Shown: positions 17,258 to 30,621 of the stretch, piece after piece | Position numbering within the stretch: position 1 is the stretch's first letter | How the letters are laid out: each line of letters starts with the position of its first letter | NCBI RefSeq assembly: GCF_001746855.1 | Contig: NZ_CP017298.1 | Coordinates: 240,220-273,384 of the forward strand | Direction: 5' to 3' | Source: Pauljensenia hongkongensis | Lineage (GTDB): Bacteria; Actinomycetota; Actinomycetes; Actinomycetales; Actinomycetaceae | Length of the DNA: 33,165 nucleotides | Notes under the pieces: generated by a model | What the model saw: only the letters and a program-made list of their open reading frames with translations | Told to the model about the DNA's origin: nothing | Database searches by the model: none | Program-made: the position numbers and the translations under genes

Positions 17258-19368
17258 TCACTTGAACCAGTCGCGGAGGTCCGCGAAGGCCGGGGGGCAG
17301 TCTTTGGTGTGCAGGGCCACATCTACGAGTGCCTCGACGAGCCTGCGGTCGACTGCGTCCAGCTTCTCGCTCGCGTAGTCCATGAGTTCGCGCATCCGGC
17401 CACCGGGGTCGTCGCGCGCGGCCGCGGCGAGCACGGCGGCGACCCGTCCGTAAGGCGAGTCTCCCATTCCTGGGCGCACTTCGAGAACGGTGATCATCGC
17501 GCGCCAGTTCCTGGCTATGAGGAACTCCTTGAGCGCGTCTTCGGCTCCTTCGTCGCTGGTGCGCGCGGCGTAGGCGGTTCCAGGATCCGGTAGCTCGGTG
17601 AGTGCGAGGATTCTCCTCATCTCATCCGCTGCGGCTTCGGGAAGCCCGGACGCCAGTACTTGGAGCACCTCGGCTCTCACACTGGGATCGTACAGCCCCT
17701 TCTCCCATTCCTTGGGTTCTTCCTTGCTCCCTTCGTCGCTCCCACTGTCTCGTTGTGGCGCGTCGGAGCCTCTCATCATGTGTTCGTGCAGGTACTGGGC
17801 TCCCCGCCCGTTCATGTGCGCGTTGTACCAGTCGGCTGCGAGAACCTGAGAACGGTGGAGGCAGCGAAGGCGGGTGACGACTGCCTCAAGGCCGTCTTCA
17901 GCGATACCGTCCACCAGGGCAGTGAGTTCACGGAGGGGCGGAACGTCCACGTACAACTCCGCGGCTGCTGATAGTGCCACGCGCTCGGAGTCCGACGGAG
18001 ACGAGTACGTCGTCTCCACAAGGTCCGCCTGCTCGGATCGGTCGCTGCAATCCAGCCATGCGTTGAGTCTCCCGCGCATTGTTGAATTGATTGTCACAGT
18101 AGCCCACGGGGGGAGTCCTTCGAGTTCCAGCTCCGAGTCCGCAACGGCGTGTGCGATCATTCGACGCACGGGGCCCAGGAACGTAGGGGCGTCTGCCGCG
18201 TTTGCCTCATGGGCAGCCGCCTTGAGGTCTTCCTCCTGACCGCCGTTGCGCCAGGTGGCTCTGGTCAGTAGCAGGTAAGCGCGGGTTGCGGGTGGAAAAC
18301 GATCGAAGTCCTCGATGAAAACTGCGAGTGATTCTTCCCTCTGTCCTGCCTCCGACAGCGATGCGGCCAGGACGTGCAATGATGCGGCAAGATCCGAAGT
18401 ATGGGATGCCGGATACTTCACGGCCAAGGCCCGGTACAGGCCCACCGCCTCCCGGGCCGCCCCCAGCGCCCCCTCCCAGTCCCCCACCGCCGACAGACGA
18501 ACGGACAGACTATTGGCCCAGCGCGCCTGCTGCTCGGGGTTGCGTTCAGCGAAATCGGCCAAGCGCTTCGTCGCAGCCAAGGCAACCCCTCGCAGTGCTC
18601 CGTGTCCGAGCGGAATCGCATTTTCGATCTCAGCGAGCGGTAAGTCAGCACCAGATGCGATGACTTCTTCCAAGGCGTGAGCGAAGGGGCCCCCTGAATG
18701 AGCGCCACATCCAGGGCACAGCCCCACAGGTACGGGCGCGCTCTCAAAGCCAGCCCGGCCAGACGGCGTACCCTCGTCGGATCGAGGGGAGCCGCGCGAG
18801 TGAGCGCCACGCATACGTTCTGCGACTGCTGTCCCAGTAACAACGCCCGCTGAACCACGCTTTCGTCGGAGTCGGGATCTTCAATGCCAGGAACCTCGAG
18901 CGGATCCGAGGGAAGCACCTGGTCCAATAGGTCCGGTTTCTTGCCGAAGACCTTGAGAACGAGGTACTCAGCCACCGGGTCCGGCCGTACACTCACTGTG
19001 TCCCCGCTGTCGCCGTGCAACAGGGTGTGAACAAGAAGCTCTGCGAAACGACTACGGCGCAGGTGCTCGTGCTCCCACTCCGGCAGCCGACTCAGGACTT
19101 CGTCGATCTCATCCTCGTCCTGGTTCGGAGCGAGTAGGCTGAGAGTAGCCGCAGCCCGGCGCATGTGATTGGTGCTGATCTTCGTCAGTACTGGGGCTTT
19201 CTTCCATTGAGAGAACTCGATTTCCAGAACTTTGTCGTAGAGATCGCTTCGAGTCGGAATCCCCTCCCCAGTATCCGCTTGTTCGTCGCACACCGCGAGC
19301 CATGCCCTCAGCACCACATCAAGAGCAGTGTCCCCCAGATCCTCGGGAAGGCCGACGCTTCGGGGAAT
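17258..19368 (-). pseudogene. 3' part of a STAND-like NTPase gene, split by the transposon and frameshifted
   Basis: This is the C-terminal part (about 700 codons) of the gene whose first 446 codons lie at 29284-30621. It begins directly at the left target duplication and continues in exactly the frame in which the N-terminal half stops being host sequence. Visible features are a helical region after the ATPase domain, RPDPVAEYLVL (a motif common after STAND ATPase domains), and TPR-like helical repeats such as NPEQQARWANSLSVRLSAVG and ALGAAREAVGLYRAL. The C-terminus is unrecognised. A single base is missing in a GGGGCCCCC run (18686-18694); adding one restores the frame. An ATG inside the left inverted repeat (19426-19428) could start an N-truncated product, but the frameshift would cut it short. 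Base composition looks less GC-rich than in the flanking core genes. Confidence 0.85.
18686..18694 (-). other. Frameshift site in the STAND gene remnant
   Basis: Upstream of this GGGGCCCCC run the protein reads LRARPYLWGCALDVALIQG in one frame. Downstream, the sensible sequence (PFAHALEEVIASG, then the TPR region) is in the neighbouring frame. One extra base in the run would join them. It may be real decay of an already inactive gene or a sequencing error in a homopolymer. Confidence 0.75.
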
Positions 19369-19376
19369 GGAATGAT
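19369..19376 (+). repeat. Left target-site duplication (GGAATGAT)
   Basis: GGAATGAT directly precedes the left end of the transposon and is repeated exactly at 29284-29291 directly after its right end. Eight bases is within the range of duplications produced by IS21-family elements. Confidence 0.92.
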
Positions 19377-19426
19377 TGGCTCTGTCAACTTCGATTGGCC
19401 CCATGGTGACGGTCTGTTCTGGCCCC
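19377..19426 (+). repeat. Left terminal inverted repeat of the transposon
   Basis: Reading inward: TGGCTC, then TGTCAACTTCGATTGGCCCC (19383-19402), a 4-base spacer, then TGACGGTCTGTTCTGGCCCC (19407-19426). The two units share the GGCCCC ending and are probably IstA-binding subsites. The right end has the same arrangement in inverse orientation. Confidence 0.9.
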
Positions 19427-19446
19427 ATGTCTACCTGGAGACCGGC

Positions 19447-19463
19447 TTGACCGAATCTTCACA
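19447..19463 (+). promoter_or_regulatory. Copper box 1: putative response-regulator operator
   Basis: TTGACC-N5-TTCACA, two half-sites with an 11-bp period, 44 bases upstream of the first cargo gene. It matches boxes 2 and 3. An 11-bp direct repeat is the usual binding pattern for OmpR/PhoB-type regulators such as the one encoded at 20259. Confidence 0.6.
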
Positions 19464-19507
19464 TTCCCTTGCCCCGACCTCGGTGTGGGGCTTCGAGGCT
19501 TGTGGCC

Positions 19508-20227
19508 ATGACCTCGAACGAGAACTCTTCCCGTACCGTGCCGCTGGTTGCCCTGGGTGTCGGCACCATCGCAGCTGCCGCCCTGGCCCTGGCCGCCCCT
19601 GACCTGACCTCCGGGTCGGGGATGGAGGGCATGCCGATGACCCACTACATGGGGCTGTTGGCCGTGCGTCAGCCGTGGAACCTGCTGTTGTTCATGGCGC
19701 TTCCGGTCGTGCTGGCCGAGACGCTCGCGATCACCGAGTTGGTGATGCTGTTGGCTCGTCGGGGTGAGCGTCCGGCGCCGGGATGGGTGACGAAGGTGGG
19801 CCACTGGGCCGGGTTGCTGGCCGGGCCGGTGTGGGTGTTCATCGGCCTGCACCTGCTTATCACTGCCGTGGTTCCGCTGACGGTCAATGGTGGCTGGCGT
19901 GGCCCCGCGGACGTGATCGCTGTCCTGTCGTACCTGGCCGGTGGCGTGCCGATGCTGGTGATCAGCCTGCTGGAGGCCGAGCTCTTGGGCCGCGACGAGA
20001 CCGGGCGCCTGCGCCTGCACGTGGCGATGGTGGCCGTGTTCCTGGTGGTGGCCCACGTCGCGATGATCTTCGGCATGCTCGACCCTGCCGTCATGGGCTA
20101 TTCGCCGAAGGCGCCGGCCTCGGTGCAGCACGACATGGGCAGCATGTCCGGCATGAACCACGACATGGGTGGCATGACGGACATGGACCACTCGACGATG
20201 ATGCCCAGCTCCGCCCCGTCGAATTGA
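19508..20227 (+). CDS. Polytopic membrane protein with Met/His-rich C-terminal tail
   Basis: A 239-residue protein with about five transmembrane segments (approximately 12-32, 55-82, 98-124, 134-159 and 170-192). It ends in a tail in which HDM, GM, NHDM and DMDH units repeat (about 208-232), as expected for Cu(I)/Cu(II) coordination outside the cytoplasm. I do not recognise a characterised family with certainty; similar proteins occur in actinobacterial copper clusters. The ATG at 19508 follows GAGGCTTGTGGCC; thirteen upstream codons remain open but have no support. A copper box lies just upstream and the response regulator gene starts 31 bases downstream, so it is probably the first gene of a copper-induced operon. 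Confidence 0.75.
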   Translation: MTSNENSSRTVPLVALGVGTIAAAALALAAPDLTSGSGMEGMPMTHYMGLLAVRQPWNLLLFMALPVVLAETLAITELVMLLARRGERPAPGWVTKVGHWAGLLAGPVWVFIGLHLLITAVVPLTVNGGWRGPADVIAVLSYLAGGVPMLVISLLEAELLGRDETGRLRLHVAMVAVFLVVAHVAMIFGMLDPAVMGYSPKAPASVQHDMGSMSGMNHDMGGMTDMDHSTMMPSSAPSN

Positions 20228-20258
20228 TCCCCGGCCGGGTCCGTGGTGAGGTGGTGTC

Positions 20259-20975
20259 ATGAACAGCGCTTCTGTTGCGGTTGTACCGAGTGTCCTGGTC
20301 GTCGACGACGAGCCGGTGCTGTCGGGCACAGTGAAGAACTACCTCGAGCGGGCCGGCATGTCGGCCCAGACCTGCGGGGACGGGCTGGCCGCGCTTGACC
20401 TTGTCCGGGCCACGGCCCCCGACGTGGTGGTGCTGGACCTGGGCCTGCCGGGCATGGACGGGGTGGAGGTGTGCCGCCAGCTGCGCACTTTCAGCGACTG
20501 CTACGTGTTGATGCTCACGGCCCGCGCCGACGAGGTCGACAAGCTGATCGGGTTGTCGGTCGGCGCGGACGACTACATGACCAAACCGTTCAGCCCGCGT
20601 GAGCTGGTGGCTCGCATCCAGGTGCTGCTGAGACGCCCCCGCGCCGGAAGTACGGGCGCCACGGCCGCGGTGGTGCACCGCATCGGCGCCCTCACCCTGG
20701 ACCCGTCGTCGCGTCGGGTGGAGCTCGACGCGTCACCGGTGGAGCTGACCCGTACCGAGTTCGACCTGTTGCAGGCCCTGGCGGAACACCCCGGCTGGGT
20801 GCTGAACCGCCGCCAGCTCACCGACGCCGTGTGGGGCGAGGACTGGGTCGGCGACGACCACCTGGTCGACGTGCACATCGCGCACCTGCGCAAGAAGCTC
20901 GGTGACGACCCCTCCCAGCCCCGGTTCGTGCAGACGGTGCGCGGCGTCGGCTACCGGATGGGCAAAGGGCAGTGA
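20259..20975 (+). CDS. OmpR/PhoB-family response regulator (CopR-like)
   Basis: A 238-residue two-domain regulator. The receiver domain has the acidic pair Asp16/Asp17 (VVDDEP), phospho-acceptor Asp60 (VVLDLGLPGMDG), Thr87 and Lys109 (MTKPFSP). The C-terminal winged helix (about 140-235) carries the family's LTRTEFDLLQ, NRRQL, VDVHIAHLRKKLGDD and RGVGYRM. Its position between a Met-rich membrane protein and a sensor kinase, multicopper oxidase and Cu-ATPase indicates control of the copper genes, probably through the TTGACC boxes. The ATG has GAGGTGG upstream, and the gene ends in a TGATG overlap with the kinase. Confidence 0.93.
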   Translation: MNSASVAVVPSVLVVDDEPVLSGTVKNYLERAGMSAQTCGDGLAALDLVRATAPDVVVLDLGLPGMDGVEVCRQLRTFSDCYVLMLTARADEVDKLIGLSVGADDYMTKPFSPRELVARIQVLLRRPRAGSTGATAAVVHRIGALTLDPSSRRVELDASPVELTRTEFDLLQALAEHPGWVLNRRQLTDAVWGEDWVGDDHLVDVHIAHLRKKLGDDPSQPRFVQTVRGVGYRMGKGQ

Positions 20976-22081
20976 TGCCGCGCAACCCGCGCGGCAGTTG
21001 GGGACGCCGACTGCTGTGGACCCAGATGGCCGTGGTGGCGGCGATGGCCGCCACCACGGTGCTGACGGCACTGCTGGTCGGCCCGGCATGGTTCCGGATG
21101 CACATGCTCGAAGCCGGCCACGCCCAGCCCGATGTCGTCGAGCACGCTCAGCAGGCGTTCCACGACGCGGGCCTGGTGTCACTGGCCGTGGGCCTGGGCA
21201 CCGCGATGCTCGCCGCCCTCGGGGTCGCCACCGTCCTCAACCGGAACCTGTCGCGCGGGGTCGAAGCCCTCGTGGACGGCGCCCAACATGTCGCCGCCGG
21301 ACACTACGACCAACCCGTCATGATGACCTCGGCCAGCCCCGAGCTGGCCCAGGTCGCTGACGCCTTTAACCACATGGCCAGCCAGATCGCCTCCACGGAG
21401 CAGACCCGACGACGCATGCTCACCGACCTGGGCCATGAGCTGCGCACCCCGCTGGCCGCCACCCAGGTCACCCTCGAAGGACTGCAGGACGGTGTGGTCG
21501 ACTTCACCCCCGCAAACATCGAGATCCTGATACGGCAGAACCAGCGGCTGGCCGCCCTGGCCGCCGACATCTCTGAGGTCTCCCGCGCCGAGGAAGGCCG
21601 CATCCCACTGTCGCTGAGCCACCAGGACCTCGACCAGATCGTGACGGCCAGCGTCGCCGCAGCCCGGCACGCCTACGACGCCACCGGGGTGACGCTGCAC
21701 GCCCAGACCGTTCCCGGCCTGCGCGTCGACGTGGATGCCGCTCGCATCGGGCAAGTCCTGGACAACCTGCTGCGCAACGCCCTGCAACACACGGTGGGCG
21801 GCAACCGGGTCGAGGTCGCGATGAGACACGAGCACGACCGGGCCGTGGTCCGCGTCACCGACAACGGCGTCGGCATCCCCACCGAGGCCCTCACCCACGT
21901 CTTCGAACGCTTCTACCGCGTCGAGGACACCCGCACTCGCGACGTCGACAGTGGAACCGGTGTCGGCCTGGCGATCTCCAGGGCCATTGCCCGCGCCCAC
22001 GGCGGTGACCTGACGGCCCACAGCGACGGCCCCGGCCACGGCGCAACCTTCGCGCTGACCCTGCCCACCGTGACTTCTTGA
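20975..22081 (+). CDS. Sensor histidine kinase (CopS/CusS-like)
   Basis: A 368-residue membrane kinase: TM1 at about 16-37, a very short extracytoplasmic loop of about 29 residues containing MHMLEAGH (possible metal ligands), TM2 at about 67-88, HAMP, HisKA with His154 (GHELRTPLAATQ), and an HATPase domain with N (LLRNALQH), G1 (DNGVGIP), F (FERFYR) and G2 (GTGVGLAISRAI) boxes. The ATG at 20975 overlaps the regulator's stop (TGATG); a GTG one codon earlier is equally possible. The signal is inferred to be copper from the neighbours. Its stop codon overlaps copper box 2. Confidence 0.92.
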   Translation: MPRNPRGSWGRRLLWTQMAVVAAMAATTVLTALLVGPAWFRMHMLEAGHAQPDVVEHAQQAFHDAGLVSLAVGLGTAMLAALGVATVLNRNLSRGVEALVDGAQHVAAGHYDQPVMMTSASPELAQVADAFNHMASQIASTEQTRRRMLTDLGHELRTPLAATQVTLEGLQDGVVDFTPANIEILIRQNQRLAALAADISEVSRAEEGRIPLSLSHQDLDQIVTASVAAARHAYDATGVTLHAQTVPGLRVDVDAARIGQVLDNLLRNALQHTVGGNRVEVAMRHEHDRAVVRVTDNGVGIPTEALTHVFERFYRVEDTRTRDVDSGTGVGLAISRAIARAHGGDLTAHSDGPGHGATFALTLPTVTS

Positions 22082-22094
22082 CCAGATCTTGACC
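22078..22094 (+). promoter_or_regulatory. Copper box 2: putative response-regulator operator
   Basis: TTGACC-N5-TTGACC, a perfect 11-bp direct repeat, 44 bases before the multicopper oxidase start and overlapping the kinase stop. It is the best of the three copies. Confidence 0.65.
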
Positions 22095-22138
22095 AACCCC
22101 TGCCGGGGGCTTCATCCGGGCCCGACAGGCTCAAGGAC

Positions 22139-23623
22139 ATGAACACACTTTCCTGCCGCCACGTGCTGTTCACCGGTCTCGGCCTGGCCTCGGCAGGGGC
22201 CTTGAGCGCCTGCGGCGCCAAGAACACCCCGGCCGCAGCACCCGCCGCGCCGAACTCCCCATTGACAATCCCCAGCCAGACCCCGCTGGTCGCAGCCCCC
22301 GGCACGAAGACCGTCAACCACGTTCTCACGCCCCGGCCGGTCACCCTCGATCTGGGCGGCGTCACGGCCAGGACTTGGGCCTACGACGAGACCCTCGACG
22401 CCCCCGTCCTGCGGGCCCGCGCCGGAGACCTGCTGCAGGTCCGCGTCGAGAACAAGCTTCCCACCAGCACCTCCGTCCACTGGCACGGCATCGCGCTGCG
22501 CCAGCCAAGCGACGGCGTGCCCGGCGTCACCCAGCAACCCATCGAGGCCGGCAGCAGCTTCACCTACCAGTTCGTCGCCCCCGACCCCGGCACCTACTTC
22601 TTCCACCCCCACACCGGGGTGCAGATCGACCGCGGCCTGTACCGGCCGCTGGTCATCGACGACCCCGCTGAACCCGGCCGCTACGACCACGAGTGGATCA
22701 TCACCCTCGACGACTGGGCCGATGGCGTGGGCACCTCACCCGATGACATCCTCGCCGCGTTCAAGGCCCAGAACGGCACCGTGTCCAGCGGCATGAACCA
22801 CGACATGGACGGCATGGACCACGGCATGTCACCCTTGGGTGACGCCGGGGACGTCACCTACCCCCACTACCTCGTCAACGGCCGCGTCCCCGCCGCGCCC
22901 CGCACCCTGACCGCCAAGCCCGGGCAGAAGGTACGACTGCGCGTCGTCAACGCCTCCTCCGACACCATCTTCAAGCTCGCCCTGCAGGGCCATCGACTCA
23001 CTGTCACCCACACCGACGGGTTCCCTGTGACTTCCACCCAGGCCAGCGCCGTCTACCTCGCGATGGGAGAACGACTGGATGCGACCATCACCCTCGGCGA
23101 CGGCGTGTTCGTGCTGCAGGCCGCGCCCGAGGGCAAGAAGGGCACCCCGGCCCGCGCCATCGTGCGCACCGGCTCCGGCAACGTCCCGGCCCCGGACACC
23201 CGCATCGCAGAACTCGACGGCAAGGCCCTGCTGACCACCCAGCTCAAGCCCGCCGACAGCGCCCGACTGCCCGACCGCAAGCCCGACACCACCCTCGACG
23301 TGGCACTCAACGGCCAGATGAAGCCCTACGCGTGGGGCCTCAACGGCAAACGCTTCGGCGAGGACACCCCACTGGCGCTCAGCCGCGGCCAGCGCGTGCG
23401 GCTGCGGATGACGAACATGACGATGATGGCCCACCCCATGCACATCCACGGCCACACTTGGGCCCTGCCCGGCAGCGACGGGCTGCGCAAGGACACCGTC
23501 CTGATCCGCCCCATGGAGACCGTCGAGGCCGACCTGCAGGCCGACAACCCCGGCACCTGGATGCTGCACTGCCACAACATCTACCACGCCGAACTCGGCA
23601 TGATGACGACCCTGCGCTACTGA
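22139..23623 (+). CDS. Multicopper oxidase, probable lipoprotein (CueO/CopA-like)
   Basis: A 494-residue oxidase that probably converts Cu(I) to less permeant Cu(II) outside the membrane. All copper-ligand motifs are present: HWHG (114-117), HPH (156-158), HPMHIHGH (432-439) and HCHNIYHAELGM (477-488, Cys478 as type-1 ligand with axial Met488). The N-terminus has a hydrophobic signal ending in the lipobox LSAC (Cys25). The preceding sequence has only one Arg, so a Tat route is uncertain even though many relatives use it. A Met/His-rich loop (GMNHDMDGMDHGM, about 218-230) resembles the tail of the membrane protein at 19508 and is a likely copper-recruiting site. It is preceded by copper box 2. 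Confidence 0.93.
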   Translation: MNTLSCRHVLFTGLGLASAGALSACGAKNTPAAAPAAPNSPLTIPSQTPLVAAPGTKTVNHVLTPRPVTLDLGGVTARTWAYDETLDAPVLRARAGDLLQVRVENKLPTSTSVHWHGIALRQPSDGVPGVTQQPIEAGSSFTYQFVAPDPGTYFFHPHTGVQIDRGLYRPLVIDDPAEPGRYDHEWIITLDDWADGVGTSPDDILAAFKAQNGTVSSGMNHDMDGMDHGMSPLGDAGDVTYPHYLVNGRVPAAPRTLTAKPGQKVRLRVVNASSDTIFKLALQGHRLTVTHTDGFPVTSTQASAVYLAMGERLDATITLGDGVFVLQAAPEGKKGTPARAIVRTGSGNVPAPDTRIAELDGKALLTTQLKPADSARLPDRKPDTTLDVALNGQMKPYAWGLNGKRFGEDTPLALSRGQRVRLRMTNMTMMAHPMHIHGHTWALPGSDGLRKDTVLIRPMETVEADLQADNPGTWMLHCHNIYHAELGMMTTLRY

Positions 23624-23668
23624 CATCTCCCGGCCGATGTCGGCCACCCACGCCTGCCCTGATGGCGC

Positions 23669-23689
23669 GGCTGCCCCCTTGCGGCAGCC
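23669..23689 (+). terminator. Stem-loop after the multicopper oxidase gene
   Basis: GGCTGCC (23669-23675) pairs perfectly with GGCAGCC (23683-23689) across a 7-base loop. A shorter palindrome, GGCCGA-TG-TCGGCC, lies at 23632-23645. Both are between the oxidase stop and copper box 3; neither is followed by a T-tract. Confidence 0.4.
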
Positions 23690-23711
23690 TCACCATCGCC
23701 GTCTGCAGAGC

Positions 23712-23728
23712 TTGACCAGACCTTCACC
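23712..23728 (+). promoter_or_regulatory. Copper box 3: putative response-regulator operator
   Basis: TTGACC-N5-TTCACC, 83 bases before the start of the small membrane protein gene that leads the ATPase operon. The flanking bases (CTTGACCAGA, CCAAACC) also resemble box 2. Confidence 0.6.
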
Positions 23729-23810
23729 AAACCTCGCGAGATCATTGACCTCGCCCCGTCATCGTGGAAGTGGAAGGAAAACCCCTTCCCCGAGCATACA
23801 AGGACACGCC

Positions 23811-24107
23811 ATGTACACGAGCCCCGACCAGGCCCCCCGCTCCTTCGGCGAGGCCCCCCGCCAGCCCCTTACCGGCCCAATGACCGACCAGGACCCCACC
23901 AGCACCACCCACCAGCACGGCAAGTCCCACCACTGGATGCACCTGCTGATGTGCGCACCGATGCTGCTCGTGGTCGCCGGCTACCTGTGGGCCGGACGTG
24001 CCAGCCTCGCCGCCGGCGGTGTCCTGGCCGCCCTCGTGCCCGCCATCAGCTGCATGCTCATGATGTGGCTGATGATGCGCATGATGGACCACGGATCCCA
24101 GCACTGA
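23811..24107 (+). CDS. Small His/Met-rich membrane protein
   Basis: A 98-residue protein with a hydrophilic N-terminus containing HQHGKSHHW, then two closely spaced hydrophobic segments (about 42-60 and 65-82) and a Met-rich end (CMLMMWLMMRMMDHGSQH). This composition suggests copper binding at the membrane and resembles small DUF2933-type proteins found beside Cu-ATPases, though I cannot confirm the family. The ATG at 23811 has AAGGA upstream; an internal ATG (MTDQDPTS) is a possible alternative. It lies 45 bases before the ATPase gene and probably shares its transcript. Confidence 0.65.
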   Translation: MYTSPDQAPRSFGEAPRQPLTGPMTDQDPTSTTHQHGKSHHWMHLLMCAPMLLVVAGYLWAGRASLAAGGVLAALVPAISCMLMMWLMMRMMDHGSQH

Positions 24108-24152
24108 CCACCGCCCGCCATCCACCGGCAGCACCGTCTCGAGGAGCAACCC

Positions 24153-26630
24153 ATGAACCACCCGGCAGCCACCGCCACCCACGACCACACCACCCGCTAC
24201 ACGTGCCCGATGCACCCCGAGGTGACCAGCGACCAGCCCGGCCGCTGCCCCGAGTGCGGCATGTTCCTCGTCGATGCCGACGCTGCACCCGCCACCCACC
24301 AGCACGGACACGGCCGCCAGAACGGACATGCCCAGCAGCACGACACCCACGACAAGGGCACGTGGCTCTGCCCGATGCACCCCGAGGTGACCAGCGACCA
24401 CCCGGGACGCTGCCCCAAGTGCGGGATGTTCCTGCAACCCGCCGACGGTGGGGACGCGCCGGCCGCACAGCACCACGACCACCAGCACCCCACCGGCGAG
24501 CCGGCGGTGGTGGCCGGTGCGGTCGCTGCAGGGGACTGGACCTGCCCGATGCACCCCGAGGTCCGCAGCGACGGCCCCGGTGACTGCCCGATCTGTGGCA
24601 TGGCGCTGGAGCGGGTCTCGGCCGGGCTCGACGACGGCCCGAACCAGGAACTCGTCGACATGCGTCGCCGGTTCCGGGTGGCGGCGGTGCTGAGCGTGCC
24701 GCTGGTGGCGATGGTGATGGTTCCCATGGTGCTGGGGCGTGCGCTGCCCGGCAGCGTCGCGCCGTGGCTCGAGCTGGCCCTGTCGACGCCGGTGGTGTGG
24801 TGGGCTGGGTGGCCGTTCTTCGTGCGCGGCGCGAAGTCGGTGGTCAGCCGTCACCTGAACATGTTCACCCTGGTGTCGTTGGGTGTCGGTGCCGCGTGGC
24901 TGTACAGCGTGGTCGCGGTGCTGGCGCCGGGGTTGTTCCCGTCCGGGATGCGGGCGATGGACGGCCGGGTCGGCACCTACTTCGAGGCCGCGGCAGTCAT
25001 CATCACCCTGGTGCTGCTCGGCCAGGTCCTCGAGCTGCGGGCCCGCGACCAGACCTCCGGTGCGATCCGCACCCTGCTCGACCTGTCACCGGCCACCGCG
25101 CACCGCATCGGGGCCGACGGCACCGAGACCGACGTGCCGGCCGCCGAGCTGCAGCTGGGCGATCGGTGCCGGGTGCGGCCGGGCGAGAAGGTGCCGGCCG
25201 ACGGCACCGTGGTCGATGGTCACGCGTATGTGGACGAGTCGATGATCACCGGCGAGCCGGTTCCGGTCGACAAGAGCCCCGGTGACCGGGTCATCGGCGG
25301 CACGATCATCCAGGGCGGCAGCCTGGTGGTGGAGGCCACTGGCCTGGGCGCCGACTCGACCCTGGCCCGGATCGTCGACCTGGTCTCCCAGGCGCAGCGG
25401 TCCCGTGCTCCGATCCAGGGACTGGTCGACAAGATCTCGGCGGTGTTCGTGCCGGTCGTGATCGCCGTCGCCCTGGCCACCTTCGGGTTGTGGCTGGCGA
25501 TCGGGCCGCAGCCGCGGCTGCCGTTCGCGATCGTGGCCGCCGTCAGCGTGCTGATCATCGCCTGCCCGTGTGCGCTGGGTCTGGCCACGCCAATGTCGAT
25601 CATGGTCGGGGTCGGGCGCGGCGCCAGCGAGGGCGTGCTGGTCAAGAACGCCGAGGCCCTCGAACGACTGCAGAAGGTCGACACCCTCGTCGTCGACAAG
25701 ACCGGTACCCTCACCCAGGGCCGCCCCAGCCTGGTCGACCAGCAGGGCGTCGACGGCCACGAGGATGCCCGGACACTGCTGCTCGCCGCTGCTGTGGAGG
25801 CCGGCTCCGAACACCCCCTCGCCAGGGCGGTGGTCGATGCTGCCCGCCAGACGGGACGCACGGTGCCGGCGGCCAGCGATTTCGCCGCCCACCCGGGTGG
25901 CGGTGTCAGCGCCACCGTCGACGGTCAGCACGTGCTCGTCGGCAGCCCCGCCTTCCTGGGCAGCCAGCACGTCGACACCCATGCCCTGGACGCCGTGGTG
26001 GAGGCCTACCGTCGCCGTGGCGCGACCGCGATCGTCGTGGCCGTCGACGGCAGGCCCGCCAGTGTGCTGGCCATCGCCGACCCGCTCAAGGCGACCACCG
26101 CCGGCGCGATCGAGGACCTGCGTCGGCGCGGGATGAAGGTCGTCATGCTCACCGGCGACAATGCCACCACCGCCCGGGCCATCGCCGACGAGCTGCGCAT
26201 CGACCAGGTCGTCGCCGACGTCCTGCCCGACCAGAAGCACGGCCACGTGCAGGCCCTGCAGGCCCAGGGCCACACGGTCGTTATGGCCGGCGACGGCGTC
26301 AACGACGCCCCCGCCCTCGCCGTGGCCGACGTGGGTGTGGCCATGGGCACCGGCACCGACGTGGCCATCGAGAGCGCCGACGTGACCCTGCTCGGCGGTG
26401 ACCTGGCCGCCCTGGTCAAGGCCCGCGACCTGTCGGTCGACACGATGCGCAACATCCGCCAGAACCTGGTCTTCGCGTTCGTGTACAACGTGGTCGGTAT
26501 CCCGCTGGCCGCCGGCGCCCTCTACCCGGCCTTTGGCTGGCTGCTGTCGCCCGTCATCGCGGCCGCCGCCATGGCCCTCAGCTCGGTCAGCGTGATCACC
26601 AACTCGCTGCGGTTGCGCCGTCACCGCTGA
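24153..26630 (+). CDS. Copper-translocating P-type ATPase (P1B)
   Basis: An 825-residue copper exporter. Instead of the usual GMTCxxC domains, its N-terminus has three copies of a short Cys/His module (CPMHPEV...CP.CGM.L) at about 18-39, 73-94 and 131-152, joined by His-rich linkers. Then come the membrane helices, the actuator loop (TGEPVPV), the transport-site motif Cys471-Pro-Cys473 in [12 protein letters not shown], the phosphorylated Asp515 in [10 protein letters not shown], the HP motif (SEHPLA), MLTGDN and [10 protein letters not shown], and the last helices with [11 protein letters not shown] and [15 protein letters not shown]. These fit the CopA/CopB group that exports Cu to the cell exterior. 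The ATG follows GAGGAGCAACCC. It ends 25 bases from the convergent istB. Confidence 0.95.
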
Positions 26631-26655
26631 CCCCAAGAGCCCAGCCGGTCGTTGT

Positions 26656-27471
26656 TCACCCCATCACAGATGCCCGGGCTCGGGTGTGGGCGAGGCGGTA
26701 GGAGTTTGTGCCGGTTTCGATGATGGTGGCGTTGTAGGTGAGGCGGTCGACGATTGCTGCGCACAAGCGGGGGTCGGTGAAGGTGTCGGTCCAGGCGGAG
26801 AAGGACTGGTTGGAGGCGATCGCGATGGCGTTCTTCTCCTCTCGTTCGGTGAGGACCTGGAACAGCAGTTCGGCGCCTCGCCGGTCGAGTTCCAGGTAGC
26901 CGAGCTCGTCAATCACGAGGAGGTCGACGCGGCCGTAGCGGTTGATGGTCTTGGTGAGTTGTTTCTCGTCGGCGGCTTCGACGAGCTCGTTCACGAGCCG
27001 GGTGGCGAGGGTGTATCGGACGCGGTAGCCCTGCTCGGCGGCGGCGGTGCCGAGCGCGATGAGCAGGTGGGACTTGCCGGTGCCGGAGTCCCCGATCAGG
27101 CACAGCGGGTCGCCGCGGCGGATCCAGTCGCCGGTGGCGAGCTCGTTGATGGTGGCCGGGTTGATGTTGGGGTTCGCGGTGAAGTCGAAGTCGGCGAGCC
27201 ATTTCTCGCGGGGAAAGCCGGCGCTCTTGATGCGACGCAGGGTGGAGCGGCGGTCGCGGTCGTCGACCTCGGCCAGGAGGAGTTCGGCGAGGAAGCCCTG
27301 GTAGGTGAGTTGTTCCTTGGTGGCGGCCGTCACGGCGTCGTCGACGACGGCGCGGATCGTGGGCAGCCGAAGCCGGCGGCAGGCTTGGTCGATCGCGGCC
27401 TGCGCGGCTTGCTCGGTGAGGCCCTGACGACGGCGAAGGCTCTCGGGACGGCTGGTGCTGGTGGTGGTCAT
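26656..27471 (-). CDS. istB: IS21-family helper ATPase IstB
   Basis: A 271-residue DnaA/DnaC-like AAA+ protein that assists the IstA transposase in target selection. Walker A is GDSGTGKS (about 127-134) and Walker B LLVIDELGYL (about 184-193); the region after SNQSFSAW carries sensor residues, and DRLTYNATII is a standard IstB ending. The ATG at 27469-27471 overlaps the istA stop (ATGA), the usual coupled arrangement. It appears intact. Confidence 0.95.
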   Translation of the reverse strand: MTTTSTSRPESLRRRQGLTEQAAQAAIDQACRRLRLPTIRAVVDDAVTAATKEQLTYQGFLAELLLAEVDDRDRRSTLRRIKSAGFPREKWLADFDFTANPNINPATINELATGDWIRRGDPLCLIGDSGTGKSHLLIALGTAAAEQGYRVRYTLATRLVNELVEAADEKQLTKTINRYGRVDLLVIDELGYLELDRRGAELLFQVLTEREEKNAIAIASNQSFSAWTDTFTDPRLCAAIVDRLTYNATIIETGTNSYRLAHTRARASVMG

Positions 27472-29135
27472 GGGGTTCCTGTCGGGGTGTGGTGGTGAGT
27501 CTCGGCGGGGGCCGGGGCGGGATCGGGTTGGCGTCGGCACAGGAGTTCGTCGTAGGCGGTGACGGTGGGCAGGGGCCGGGTGTCTTCGGGCAGGTGCGCG
27601 ATGACCTGGTGCGGGTTGGTGGAGCGTCGGGGTGGCAGGTTCACGACCGTCCCGCCCCTGGTCTGGCTGGCTGGGGCGGGTGTGTGGGTGGTGGCATGGC
27701 GGCGGGCTTCGACGGCGACGACGTCGGGGCTGATCGCGCCCACCGACAGGGCCGAGGTGATGCCGGCGATCGCCGCGTCGGACGGGAGGGATCGGTGGAA
27801 CAGGAGCACGTCGATCAACGCTTGGGTCCCGGCCACGTCGCCGCTGGTCTTGCGGGCCGCGGCCCAGAACGCGTCGTGGGCCGCGGTGAATGCTCCGGCG
27901 GCGCGGGCCTGCGCGAGGGCGGTGGAGCCGGGGAACGCGCCGGGCTTGTGCCGCAGCACTTCGAGGTAGTGGTCCAGCTCGACCCGGGTCACGCCACGGG
28001 TGCCGAGGCGAGGGTGGGTGGCGAGGACGGTGCGGCCCTCGAACACGACCACACACGAGGCCCGCAGGGACACGCGGACGCGTTGGCCGATGAGGTGCGC
28101 GGGGACGGAGTACTTGACCATGCGGACGGTGATCAGGGCGGAGCGGTCGACGCGGGGGTGGAGGATCAGGCCGGGGTCGAAGTCGTCGGCCGGCAACGGT
28201 GCCAGGTGGGGCAGCTCGGCGTGGTGGTCCTGCCCGATCGTGTTGGCGTGGCCGGTGATGCGGCGGGTGTTGTCGTCGTGCTCCCAGGCGCGGATCTTGT
28301 CGTTGAGTTCGTCCAGGGTGGCGACTTCGGGCATGGGGGTGAGGTGGTTGCGGCGGAACCATCCGACCTCGCCCTCGACGCCGCCTTTCTCGTGGGCGCC
28401 GTCGATGCCGGGCTGGCAGTAGAACGCGTCGAAGCCGTAGTGGGAGCGGAACAGCACCCAGCGTTCGTTCTCGTCGCGTAGCCGGTCGCCGCCGTGGATG
28501 ACCTGGACGACGGCGGAGGTGAGGTTGTCGTAGCGGATGTGGCGGGTGGGGATGCCGCCCAGGGCGTGGAAGGCCTCGATGTGCCCTTCGAGGAAGGCCT
28601 CCTGTCCGCCGGTCGGGTAGACGCGGTGGATGGCCTTGCCGGAGTGGGACAGGCGGTAGACGAACATGTGGCACTTGGTCTTGACGCCGTCCAGGATGAC
28701 GTAGACCTCGCCGAAGTCGACCTCGGCCTCCGCGCCGGGGGCATGGTCCTGCGGCACCATCGCCTCCACCCGGCGCCCGGCCTCCAGATCGATCTGCGCG
28801 CGCCTGACCCGGACGTAGTCCCGCACCGTGGAGTAGGACAGGTCGGTGGCGCCGTGCTCGTCGCGCAGCCGGGCCAGGATCCTGGTCGCGGTATGGCGCT
28901 GCTTGCGCGGCGCGGTCAGGTCATAGGTGAGCATCTCGTCGATCGCCGGCTTGTACGGGTCCAGGCGCGGTGCTGTGCGGACCGGTTTCTTGCGGGGTGG
29001 GGGTTCGGCTGCGGCGAGTGCCTGGCGGACGGTGCGGCGGTGGACTCCGTGTTTGCGGGCGAGCTCGCGGATGGACAGGCCATCGACTCGCGCGTCGTGG
29101 CGGATGTCGGCGTACAGCTGCACTCGTGATCCCAT
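27468..29135 (-). CDS. istA: IS21-family transposase IstA
   Basis: A 555-residue DDE transposase. It has an N-terminal helix-turn-helix (GLSIRELARKHGVHRRTVRQAL, residues 19-40 region), a second DNA-binding part, and the catalytic core with Asp140 (EAEVDFGEVYV), Asp203 (IRYDNLTSAV) and Glu254 (EKGGVEGEVGW). The C-terminal region includes the typical KYSVPAHLIGQRVRV beta-domain. The ATG at 29133-29135 has GGGAG upstream. All three catalytic residues are present and there are no internal stops, so the element may still be mobile. Confidence 0.95.
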   Translation of the reverse strand: MGSRVQLYADIRHDARVDGLSIRELARKHGVHRRTVRQALAAAEPPPRKKPVRTAPRLDPYKPAIDEMLTYDLTAPRKQRHTATRILARLRDEHGATDLSYSTVRDYVRVRRAQIDLEAGRRVEAMVPQDHAPGAEAEVDFGEVYVILDGVKTKCHMFVYRLSHSGKAIHRVYPTGGQEAFLEGHIEAFHALGGIPTRHIRYDNLTSAVVQVIHGGDRLRDENERWVLFRSHYGFDAFYCQPGIDGAHEKGGVEGEVGWFRRNHLTPMPEVATLDELNDKIRAWEHDDNTRRITGHANTIGQDHHAELPHLAPLPADDFDPGLILHPRVDRSALITVRMVKYSVPAHLIGQRVRVSLRASCVVVFEGRTVLATHPRLGTRGVTRVELDHYLEVLRHKPGAFPGSTALAQARAAGAFTAAHDAFWAAARKTSGDVAGTQALIDVLLFHRSLPSDAAIAGITSALSVGAISPDVVAVEARRHATTHTPAPASQTRGGTVVNLPPRRSTNPHQVIAHLPEDTRPLPTVTAYDELLCRRQPDPAPAPAETHHHTPTGTP

Positions 29136-29192
29136 CTCGGCTCCCTTGCCCTCGCGACTGGTTCCCAGTGATGGGGACCAGCGTGAAGGGGT

Positions 29193-29212
29193 GGGGCCAG
29201 TTCAGACCGTCA
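29193..29212 (-). repeat. Extra internal copy of the end repeat (right side)
   Basis: GGGGCCAGTTCAGACCGTCA is a third unit at the right end, nearly the exact inverse of the left unit at 19407-19426 (TGACGGTCTGTTCTGGCCCC). Arrays of such subsites near the transposase promoter are typical of IS21 ends. Confidence 0.8.
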
Positions 29213-29233
29213 ACACCCCGGCAAGTCGCACGC

Positions 29234-29283
29234 GGGGCCAGATCAGGCCGTCACAACGGGGCCGAACCAAGTTGCCACAACCA
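29234..29283 (-). repeat. Right terminal inverted repeat of the transposon
   Basis: Reading inward on the minus strand: TGGTTG, then TGGCAACTTGGTTCGGCCCC (29258-29277), a 4-base spacer, then TGACGGCCTGATCTGGCCCC (29234-29253). This matches the left end position for position apart from about ten substitutions. Confidence 0.9.
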
Positions 29284-29291
29284 GGAATGAT
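29284..29291 (+). repeat. Right target-site duplication (GGAATGAT)
   Basis: Exact copy of 19369-19376, immediately after the right end of the element. In the interrupted gene it encodes the last host codons (His-Ser) before the insertion. Confidence 0.92.
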
Positions 29292-30621
29292 ACAGTCTGG
29301 CGGAGAAGCCCCTCACAGCCCGGATGTAGATCCTGTTGAGCAGCCCCTGGTCCTCCTCCTGCCGGGCCTTCCCCAAGTTCGAAACAACCAGTGTGTTACT
29401 CAGCTCTAGTCCGTCCTGCTCCACCTCCTCACGGAACTCGTCCCACCACGCATCTGCGCCCCGTGCGGTCAGCACGATCCGCGTAGGGGCTCGCCGTACC
29501 AGCAACGCCCGGAACACTTCGGCCAACCGACCCCGCTGGGCCTCCTCGGCGTAGTCCACCACCACCATCAGCTCGGTCGCAAGATCCTCGAGAGCGGCGA
29601 GCTCCTGGTCCGTCACGTCGGTCGTCGTCCGCAGGAACCCGGTGTACCAGCCGGTCGAGGACAAGTCACCGCACAACTCGACGGCCATACGAGTCTTCCC
29701 CGAGCCGCCCTTGCCCGTCACCACGGCCACGGCGATATCGGCACCGGCGCCATTCGCGGTGTCCGTGGAAGTGCGGGCAGGGGTCGTTGCCCACTGGCGG
29801 AGCTTGCGGTACTCGGATCGCTCTTCGAAGGAGACGACGGCGTGCCTGGCCTTGATGAGTTGCAGGGGCGTGAAATCCTGAGGCAATGGAGTACGGGCCG
29901 GGGCAAGTATCCGCTCAAGATTGCCTCCCGGAGGAACGGCGTCGTCGGCTTTGTGGCTGCGTTGACCACCGACGTCGACGCACACGTCCCACTTCCATTC
30001 CTGGAGGTAGTCGGCGCCCCGGGAAAGAGCAGTGCCCCAATCGCCCTTCGGCATCATCGCCTGTTGAACGTCGATGGCCAGCCACGTGCCCGTCGGATCG
30101 TCGGCGTACTCCGCCACAACACCGGCGAGCGCGCACCCGTCCACCGCCAGTGGCTCACGGCTGAACCCCGACTCGATCACGGCGTCGCACCCGGTGGACC
30201 ATGTCCGCCCCAAAGGCACTACGACAATCGAGTGCCGTTGCTTCCCGTTGGCGGTGGTGAGTGTGACTATGAGGGGGTAGATCCCGGCGTCCAGCGCGGC
30301 GCAGCAGAAGGTCACGCACAAATCCACGCACGTCGCCTGTCTGAAGCCGAGCACCTCGGTGACGGGCCTGATCCATTGTGCCCCCGGAACGCTATCCGGC
30401 GGCTCGTGGACATACTCAATACCCAGATCCACTAGCTTTTCGAATATTTTCTTCGCCTGAGCGCCAACGCGCGTTTGCCCGTTCTTCACCAGGTCGGGCT
30501 CAGGGCCCGGGAACCCGCTCCAATCCGCTGCGAGCAGTAGGCGCTGCACCCAGCCAGCGTGGACCATATCCACCAAACCCACAGGATTGTGGGTCGAGTC
30601 CCACTTCACTCGCTCACGCAT
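29284..30621 (-). pseudogene. 5' part of a STAND-like NTPase gene with a Cys-protease/transglutaminase-like N-terminus
   Basis: These 446 codons are the N-terminal part of a protein that would be about 1,149 residues when joined to 17258-19368 (one base restored). Residues 92-190 resemble the transglutaminase/papain-like domain seen in some helicases and conflict proteins: QATCVDLCVTFCCAALDAG (Cys98), a His at 130 (RHSIVVVPLG) and WLAIDVQ (Asp184) could form a catalytic triad. A P-loop NTPase domain follows: TGKGGSGKT (302-310), Walker B-like LMVVVDYAEE (Asp356) and RIVLTAR. After the target site the frame runs on into the transposon and stops at 29251. The ATG at 30619-30621 overlaps the lipase stop by 16 bases, so the two were translationally coupled. 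Residual expression could give an isolated protease-plus-P-loop fragment. Confidence 0.85.

Follow-up and report, generated by a model that had tools for sequence, protein, structure and literature searches.

Three direct-repeat boxes precede three copper-gene transcription units in a 33,165-nucleotide stretch of the Pauljensenia hongkongensis genome (contig NZ_CP017298.1, positions 240,220 to 273,384 of the forward strand; hereafter the window, numbered from its first base), and all of them lie within one IS21-family transposon of 9.9 kb (19377-29283). We consider it highly probable that the boxes are operators of the CopR-like regulator encoded between them, that three transcripts are activated through them, and that the regulon is the cargo of this transposon. 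One copper-sensing regulator would then very probably switch on a whole copper-detoxification kit, and kit and switches together would form a complete element that has moved between bacterial genera. An earlier note on this DNA had proposed a self-contained copper regulon; the term is truer than was claimed because all three operons and their boxes lie within the one transposon, while regulation by CopR itself is the part that we infer. The IS21 family is usually described with two transposition genes only, and here a metal-resistance regulon appears to travel in such a transposon with its own sensor, regulator and operators. The boxes and the genes of the regulon are as follows.

19446-19463, + strand: candidate CopR box 1, CTTGACC-N4-CTTCACA
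19508-20227, + strand: DUF6803 membrane protein with a Met/His-rich tail (PF20617, E 8.6e-60)
20259-20975, + strand: CopR-like OmpR-family response regulator (PF00072, receiver; PF00486, winged helix)
20972-22081, + strand: CopS-like sensor kinase with a short His/Met-containing outer loop, by eye (HAMP, HisKA, HATPase_c)
22077-22094, + strand: candidate CopR box 2, CTTGACC-N4-CTTGACC, overlapping the copS stop codon
22139-23623, + strand: multicopper oxidase, likely a lipoprotein (PF07732, PF00394, PF07731; four HxH motifs and an LSAC motif)
23711-23728, + strand: candidate CopR box 3, CTTGACC-N4-CTTCACC
23811-24107, + strand: small Met/His-rich membrane protein, which matched no family
24153-26630, + strand: P1B copper-type ATPase (TIGR01511, 581.6 bits against a cutoff of 397; PF19335, 3 stretches), with a CPC motif and, at the N terminus, three CPMHP metal-binding repeats

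Candidate operators in the window and around CopR homologues

The earlier note had placed boxes of the form TTGACC-N5-TTSAC at 19447, 22078 and 23712, and all three were recovered on the + strand. Written as CTTGACC-N4-CTTSAC, the pattern has 3 matches in the window, where 100 shuffles of the window give 0.01 on average and never as many as 3. In the assembly as a whole, a single contig of 2,141,493 bases that is 70.5% complete, CTTGACCNNNNCTTSAC has exactly 3 matches, all in the window, and the looser pattern CTTSAYCNNNNCTTSA returns the same 3 and no more, leaving none outside the element; the note's concern that such boxes might occur at random elsewhere in the genome was not borne out. When seven congeners that have no CopR match were searched with CTTSAYCNNNNCTTSA, they gave 1-7 matches per genome (27 in total), and only 2 of the 27 begin CTTGACC.

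The published CopR site of Corynebacterium glutamicum is TGAAGATTTgaTGAAGATTT, within which three-base changes abolish CopR binding according to the accessible part of PMC3140484. Its reverse complement contains the CTTCA core twice, at the 11-base spacing of the window boxes, and the resemblance to a Corynebacterium CopR repeat that the note had suggested therefore holds. The window boxes are likewise 11-bp-period direct repeats near copR, with the core CTTSA compared with CTTCA/TGAAG. Because their first halves are of the CTTGACC type and the exact 9-bp half-site TGAAGATTT is not matched in the window (the best half-sites agree at 7-8 of 9 bases, by eye), we regard the window site as a variant of the C. 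glutamicum operator. Weaker half-sites in phase with the boxes were also seen by eye: CTTGCCC at 19468-19474, 22 bases from the start of box 1 (region 19446-19490), CTTCATC 33 bases from the start of box 2 (22077-22120) and ATTGACC 33 bases from the start of box 3 (23711-23755). These might hold a second CopR dimer.

The gene pair itself follows the C. glutamicum CopR/CopS type, with an OmpR-family regulator adjoining a kinase that has HAMP, HisKA and HATPase domains. The kinase's outer loop lies between hydrophobic stretches at about residues 18-38 and 68-88 (by eye), a length that fits the loop of about 30 residues given for C. glutamicum CopS in the accessible part of PMC3353115. The window regulator passes none of the best 25 of 98 matched NCBIfam regulator models (the best being MtrA, 227.7 bits against a cutoff of 300), and the heavy-metal regulator subfamily TIGR01387 (cztR_silR_copR) was ruled out at 166.3 bits against a cutoff of 279.2.

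To follow the boxes beyond the element, we collected 63 loci, 915,703 bases in total, whose regulators share 52-69% identity with that of the window: 23 come from the same GTDB family, 22 from the class, 9 from plasmids and 9 from named contigs. The last group was taken from the matches listed, as ten actinobacterial relatives (L060-L069) among 80 retained loci, minus L062, which has the same length and match position as L038; L207 and L208 are outside the counts. The C-terminal region of CopR is strongly conserved among these homologues. Same-strand CTTSA pairs at spacing 11 number 91 in 43 of the 63 loci, as against 0-9 at each other spacing from 6 to 30, and there are none at spacing 11 in ten control loci (131,344 bases) around actinobacterial regulators 44-49% identical, chosen among the matches listed. 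An unbiased 5-mer scan at period 11 ranked CTTCA/TGAAG first, with 60 occurrences versus a mean of 0.8 at six other spacings. Conservation at homologous clusters, on which the earlier note had made its proposal depend, is thus found at distant CopR loci. The 11 annotated plasmid loci hold 13 boxes, of which 11 are intergenic (the intergenic share of bases being 19.1%) and 9 have a same-strand gene start no more than 250 bases away; the Streptomyces mirabilis locus among these 11 has no box. The published C. glutamicum site is found upstream of copR on a Corynebacterium marinum plasmid, and pLEW279b has the motif with one change. One experimentally mapped CopR site, in C. glutamicum, is in this way extended to about 90 predicted sites around CopR homologues.

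Several observations weigh against this interpretation. A strict box is absent from 20 of the 63 CopR loci, though at many of these the C-terminal region of the regulator is almost unchanged, and a one-mismatch search of these 20 loci found 40 boxes at period 11 as against 17-25 at periods 7, 8, 10, 13 and 16 and 42-83 at periods 9, 12, 14 and 15. In the 88 of the 91 homologous boxes that have full context and a distinct core, the half-site CTTGACC is rare (2 of 88 first halves and 8 of 88 second halves), the commonest being CTTCATC. The homologous loci are phylogenetically non-independent, several coming from one genome, and 7 of the ten control loci are from Streptomyces with nearly the same regulator. 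With the assembly only 70.5% complete, a fourth box could be missing from it. Finally, CopR binding, the copper response, activation and the transcription starts are predicted from sequence, with binding, phosphorylation and induction carried over by analogy from the C. glutamicum work. The earlier claim of a copper regulon read by the element's OmpR-type regulator is supported, with binding by CopR predicted.

As to missing sequence, the assembly (G000) lacks CTTCATCAGCTCTTGA, which is present at least 3 times in 6 of the 7 congeners searched; this single-contig assembly may lack repeated regions.

The boxes could instead be operators of another regulator, one belonging to the host, which we think improbable. 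Binding of the boxes by CopR is itself a prediction, and the window's genome has 15 first-look candidate regulators of the CopR type, one of which is this CopR. Against a host regulator, the pattern accompanies CopR homologues throughout Actinobacteria and none of the ten loci of 44-49% identical regulators has it, the host assembly holds no other copy of it, and all three boxes are present in five copies of the element from another genus.

The transposon and its copies

The element is bounded by inverted terminal repeats and a target-site duplication, and interrupts a host gene:

19369-19376: target-site duplication GGAATGAT, copy 1, 8 bp, identical to 29284-29291
19377-19426, + strand: far terminal repeat (TGG...GGCCCC, second GGCCCC 24 bp on), an inverted match to 29283-29234, with the same end in L031-L035 and L149
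26656-27471, - strand: istB, IS21 helper ATPase (PF01695, E 8.2e-64 on the open reading frame 26656-28674; start at 27471 by eye)
27468-29135, - strand: istA, IS21 transposase (Mu-transpos_C_2, PF22483; 555 aa, no internal stop; 4-bp overlap with istB)
29234-29283, - strand: istA-side terminal repeat, an inverted match to 19377-19426
29284-29291: target-site duplication GGAATGAT, copy 2, identical to 19369-19376
29292-30621, - strand: 5' part of the interrupted STAND-NTPase-like host gene (PF25199, weak, 27.3 bits, below the cutoff of 34)

The rest of the host gene continues from 19376 downwards (18418-19376). Uninterrupted homologues of it exist in two congeners, G042 and G125, where the flank matches are exactly collinear; the gaps of 18 and 6 unaligned bases between them fit a single copy of the duplication. 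From these intact homologues we conclude that the regulon probably arrived by transposition, and the near identity of its copies across genera suggests that the arrival was recent. The interrupted gene is possibly a defence-type ATPase, and G042 has two related genes about 4.7 kb apart.

The segment 19377-29283 matches five genomes of a second genus in the same GTDB family, in pieces 97.4-99.5% identical and with the same end points. A sixth full-length copy, in G205, was found by an IstA search, and in G145, the seventh genome of the second genus, the element is split over two contigs and is 88-95% identical, whereas the copies in the other six are about 99% identical. The far end is identical among copies and the istA-side end differs by one to three substitutions in its first 26 bases. 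Counting the window, these eight genomes represent seven insertion sites, one of them shared by G100 and G172. Target duplication is a trait of the IS21 family, and exact duplications of 6-9 bases flank the element at five of the seven sites (window, G131, G199, G205 and G145).

Not every copy looks intact, and two irregularities count against the proposal. Exact duplications are absent at two of the seven sites, the shared G100/G172 site agreeing at 5 of 6 bases and G138 showing none, and the IstA match contains a stop codon in 4 of the 9 genomes that have one (G138, G205, G038 and G100); some copies may therefore have lost the capacity for autonomous movement. In G199 the match to the oxidase is split in two. 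Of 213 genomes of the family, 9 have an IstA match at E <= 1e-150; they belong to 2 of the 36 genera, and the only one from the genus of the window is the window's own genome. Transposition in the present day is a prediction from sequence.

It is unlikely that the copper genes are simply neighbours of an IS21 copy that moves without them. A standard IS21 element consists of istA-istB between two ends, as the accessible part of PMC10122671 has it, which makes a cargo unusual; yet the same outer ends bracket the copper genes and istAB in the window and in the six full-length copies, as well as in the eighth, split over two contigs, exact target duplications stand at five of the seven sites, and versions carrying arsenic and oleate-hydratase genes, taken up below, share the layout.

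Promoter geometry

A -10-like hexamer follows each box in the window at a fixed distance:

19495-19500, + strand: -10-like hexamer GAGGCT, 49 bases from the start of box 1, with 7 bases and then the start codon; conserved in G145
22126-22131, + strand: -10-like hexamer CAGGCT, 49 bases from the start of box 2 and 7 bases before the ATG; conserved in G145
23760-23765, + strand: -10-like hexamer CATCGT, 49 bases from the start of box 3; CACGGT in G145, with the A and T kept

In an alignment of the 88 homologous boxes, two positions stand out besides the repeat itself, offset 51 with A and offset 55 with T. Of the 88 boxes, 38 have the corresponding hexamer NANNNT at offset 50 and 10 have it at offset 49, compared with 0-11 (mostly 1-4) at other offsets from 20 to 99, and in the window it is found at offset 49 in 3 of 3 promoters; TANNNT of standard promoters is found at offsets 49-51 in only 2 of 88. 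This spacing tendency would help to predict CopR promoters across Actinobacteria. Within the window, the first two promoters have identical geometry, with 62 bp from box start to ATG. Measured from box end to start codon, the distances of 44 bases given for them by the earlier note are correct, and the third, given as 83, is 82, its ATG being at 23811.

No -35 signal stands out in the alignment of the 88 boxes, from which we infer that CopR takes over the -35 role. As the start codon comes only 7 bases after the hexamer, the first two mRNAs (the DUF6803 operon and the oxidase) are predicted to be leaderless, probably so in both cases. The copy in G145 is 88-90% identical in its copper part; boxes 1 and 2 and their hexamers are unchanged in it and box 3 is altered once, in the spacer between its halves. 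The AAGGA before the oxidase ATG is not kept there, which argues for a leaderless start of the oxidase.

Two facts limit the geometry. NANNNT is found at neither offset 49 nor offset 50 in 40 of the 88 homologous boxes, and in C. glutamicum a single box is shared by two divergent operons and is distant from the start of cg3286 (accessible part of PMC3140484), so the arrangement is not universal.

A quite improbable alternative is that the TTGACC and TTCACC hexamers are ordinary sigma-factor -35 elements that resemble one another merely as promoters. They do lie upstream of start codons, and TTGACC is one base away from the -35 consensus TTGACA. The distance from hexamer to -10-like element is 42 or 31 bases, compared with the roughly 17 needed, and with this wrong spacing TTGACC was dropped as a -35 candidate; moreover, a paired repeat with a strict 11-bp period is not a -35 property, CTTCATC is not -35-like, and the remainder of the genome has no match to the pattern. 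That the boxes match merely as recent promoter duplicates without a regulatory role is least probable of all, since for all their likeness, including CTTGACCAGA common to boxes 2 and 3, the sequence between box and -10-like hexamer varies freely among the three window promoters, the diverged copy in G145 retains the positions of box and hexamer, and the same arrangement recurs with different flanks at loci of other families.

Under the reading that we favour, of operators bound by the element's own CopR, CopS would sense copper outside the membrane through its short His/Met loop and phosphorylate CopR, a dimer of which would bind the 11-bp CTTSA repeat head to tail, at about -62 to -45 relative to the transcription start. 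Bound CopR would recruit RNA polymerase to promoters with a fixed -10-like element and no clear -35, turning on three transcripts: DUF6803-copR-copS, with autoregulation; the multicopper oxidase; and the small protein with the copper ATPase. The ATPase would export copper, the oxidase would detoxify it outside and the small proteins would probably bind it, and every new host would receive the regulator and the switches together with the transposon.

Relatives with other cargo and comparison with known systems

The same IS21 backbone occurs with other genes. In G038 (L150 6214-14618), an element of 8,405 bases with a 6-base duplication has a backbone 97.5-97.7% identical, a different far end and a cargo of acr3, a disulfide-reductase-like gene, arsD and arsA. 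On the Gordonia sihwensis plasmid NZ_CP121249.1, istAB and its end are 91.4% identical in an element of 9,062 bases, also with a 6-base duplication, that carries genes for oleate hydratase, 3-hydroxyacyl-CoA dehydrogenase, MerR, TetR, Vsr and a sulfate permease. This element is found twice in the record (L216 4943-14004 and L218 1349-10410), within a larger repeated stretch, possibly through tandem duplication or an assembly effect. A more distant relative in G470 (L219 3097-8529; IstA 69%), the only other IstA match at E <= 1e-230 among 394 genomes of the class, contains a sigma-70-type sigma-factor gene, like those of extracytoplasmic function, and unassigned open reading frames inside its ends; no target duplication was found for this element of 5,433 bases. 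A Tsukamurella relative (L217), for which only one good end was found, was set aside.

On the Cutibacterium modestum plasmid NZ_CP017041.1 (L175 3488-4653), istB and a short upstream stretch are 95% identical, adjoining arsD-arsA and near a cadmium transporter gene; the stretch resembles a degraded, arsenic-carrying form of the element.

Because the far ends differ with the cargo and the istA-side ends remain alike in the copper, arsenic and oleate-hydratase kinds, swapping of a module of cargo plus far end is suggested, though not proven. In a wider reading, which we hold to be evenly poised between right and wrong, this actinobacterial IS21 lineage would be a modular, self-regulated cargo platform spreading between genera, with constant istAB and istA-side end and a swapped cargo-plus-far-end module (a copper regulon, an arsenic operon, an oleate-hydratase operon and, in the distant relative, a sigma-factor gene).

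The literature that we searched, with most subscription journals outside it and hence not proof of absence, yielded no IS21-family transposon with copper cargo. As in members of the family such as IS5376, istA and istB overlap by 4 bp, IstB is an AAA+ helper, IstA has a Mu-type C-terminal domain and the insertion creates target duplications; the inverted ends are made of repeated motifs with a terminal CA, as described in the accessible part of PMC10122671. Unlike the standard, the element is 9.9 kb long with six copper genes between istB and the far end, and is therefore a cargo-bearing IS21 derivative. Transporter insertion sequences (tIS) are derivatives of insertion sequences with passenger genes (accessible part of PMC9330008), and like them the element has the transposition genes of a single insertion sequence and one pair of ends around its passengers. 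The same outer ends recur at seven sites in eight genomes, and, like a tIS, the element would have moved as a unit.

The regulon most resembles the C. glutamicum CopRS regulon (cg3281-cg3289), which, in the accessible parts of PMC3140484 and PMC3353115, shares the OmpR-type CopR, the sensor kinase (its outer loop being short there and, by eye, probably also in the window), the multicopper oxidase, the copper ATPase and a direct repeat of period 11 with a CTTCA core. Its CopR site is seemingly the only one in its genome, and the operator is similarly confined to its own copper cluster in the window, where 3 of 3 genome matches fall. The related plasmid pLEW279b has a CopR 55.7% identical over 89% of the query. 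The window differs in having first half-sites of CTTGACC and three boxes for three co-directional transcripts, two with an identical box-to-start distance, as against one box and two divergent operons in C. glutamicum, and in its DUF6803 protein, a description given to none of cg3281-cg3289 in the accessible part of PMC3140484. Taken together, the operators would be new members of the CopR-site class with a variant first half-site, and the cargo-bearing IS21 transposon a variant of the tIS kind.

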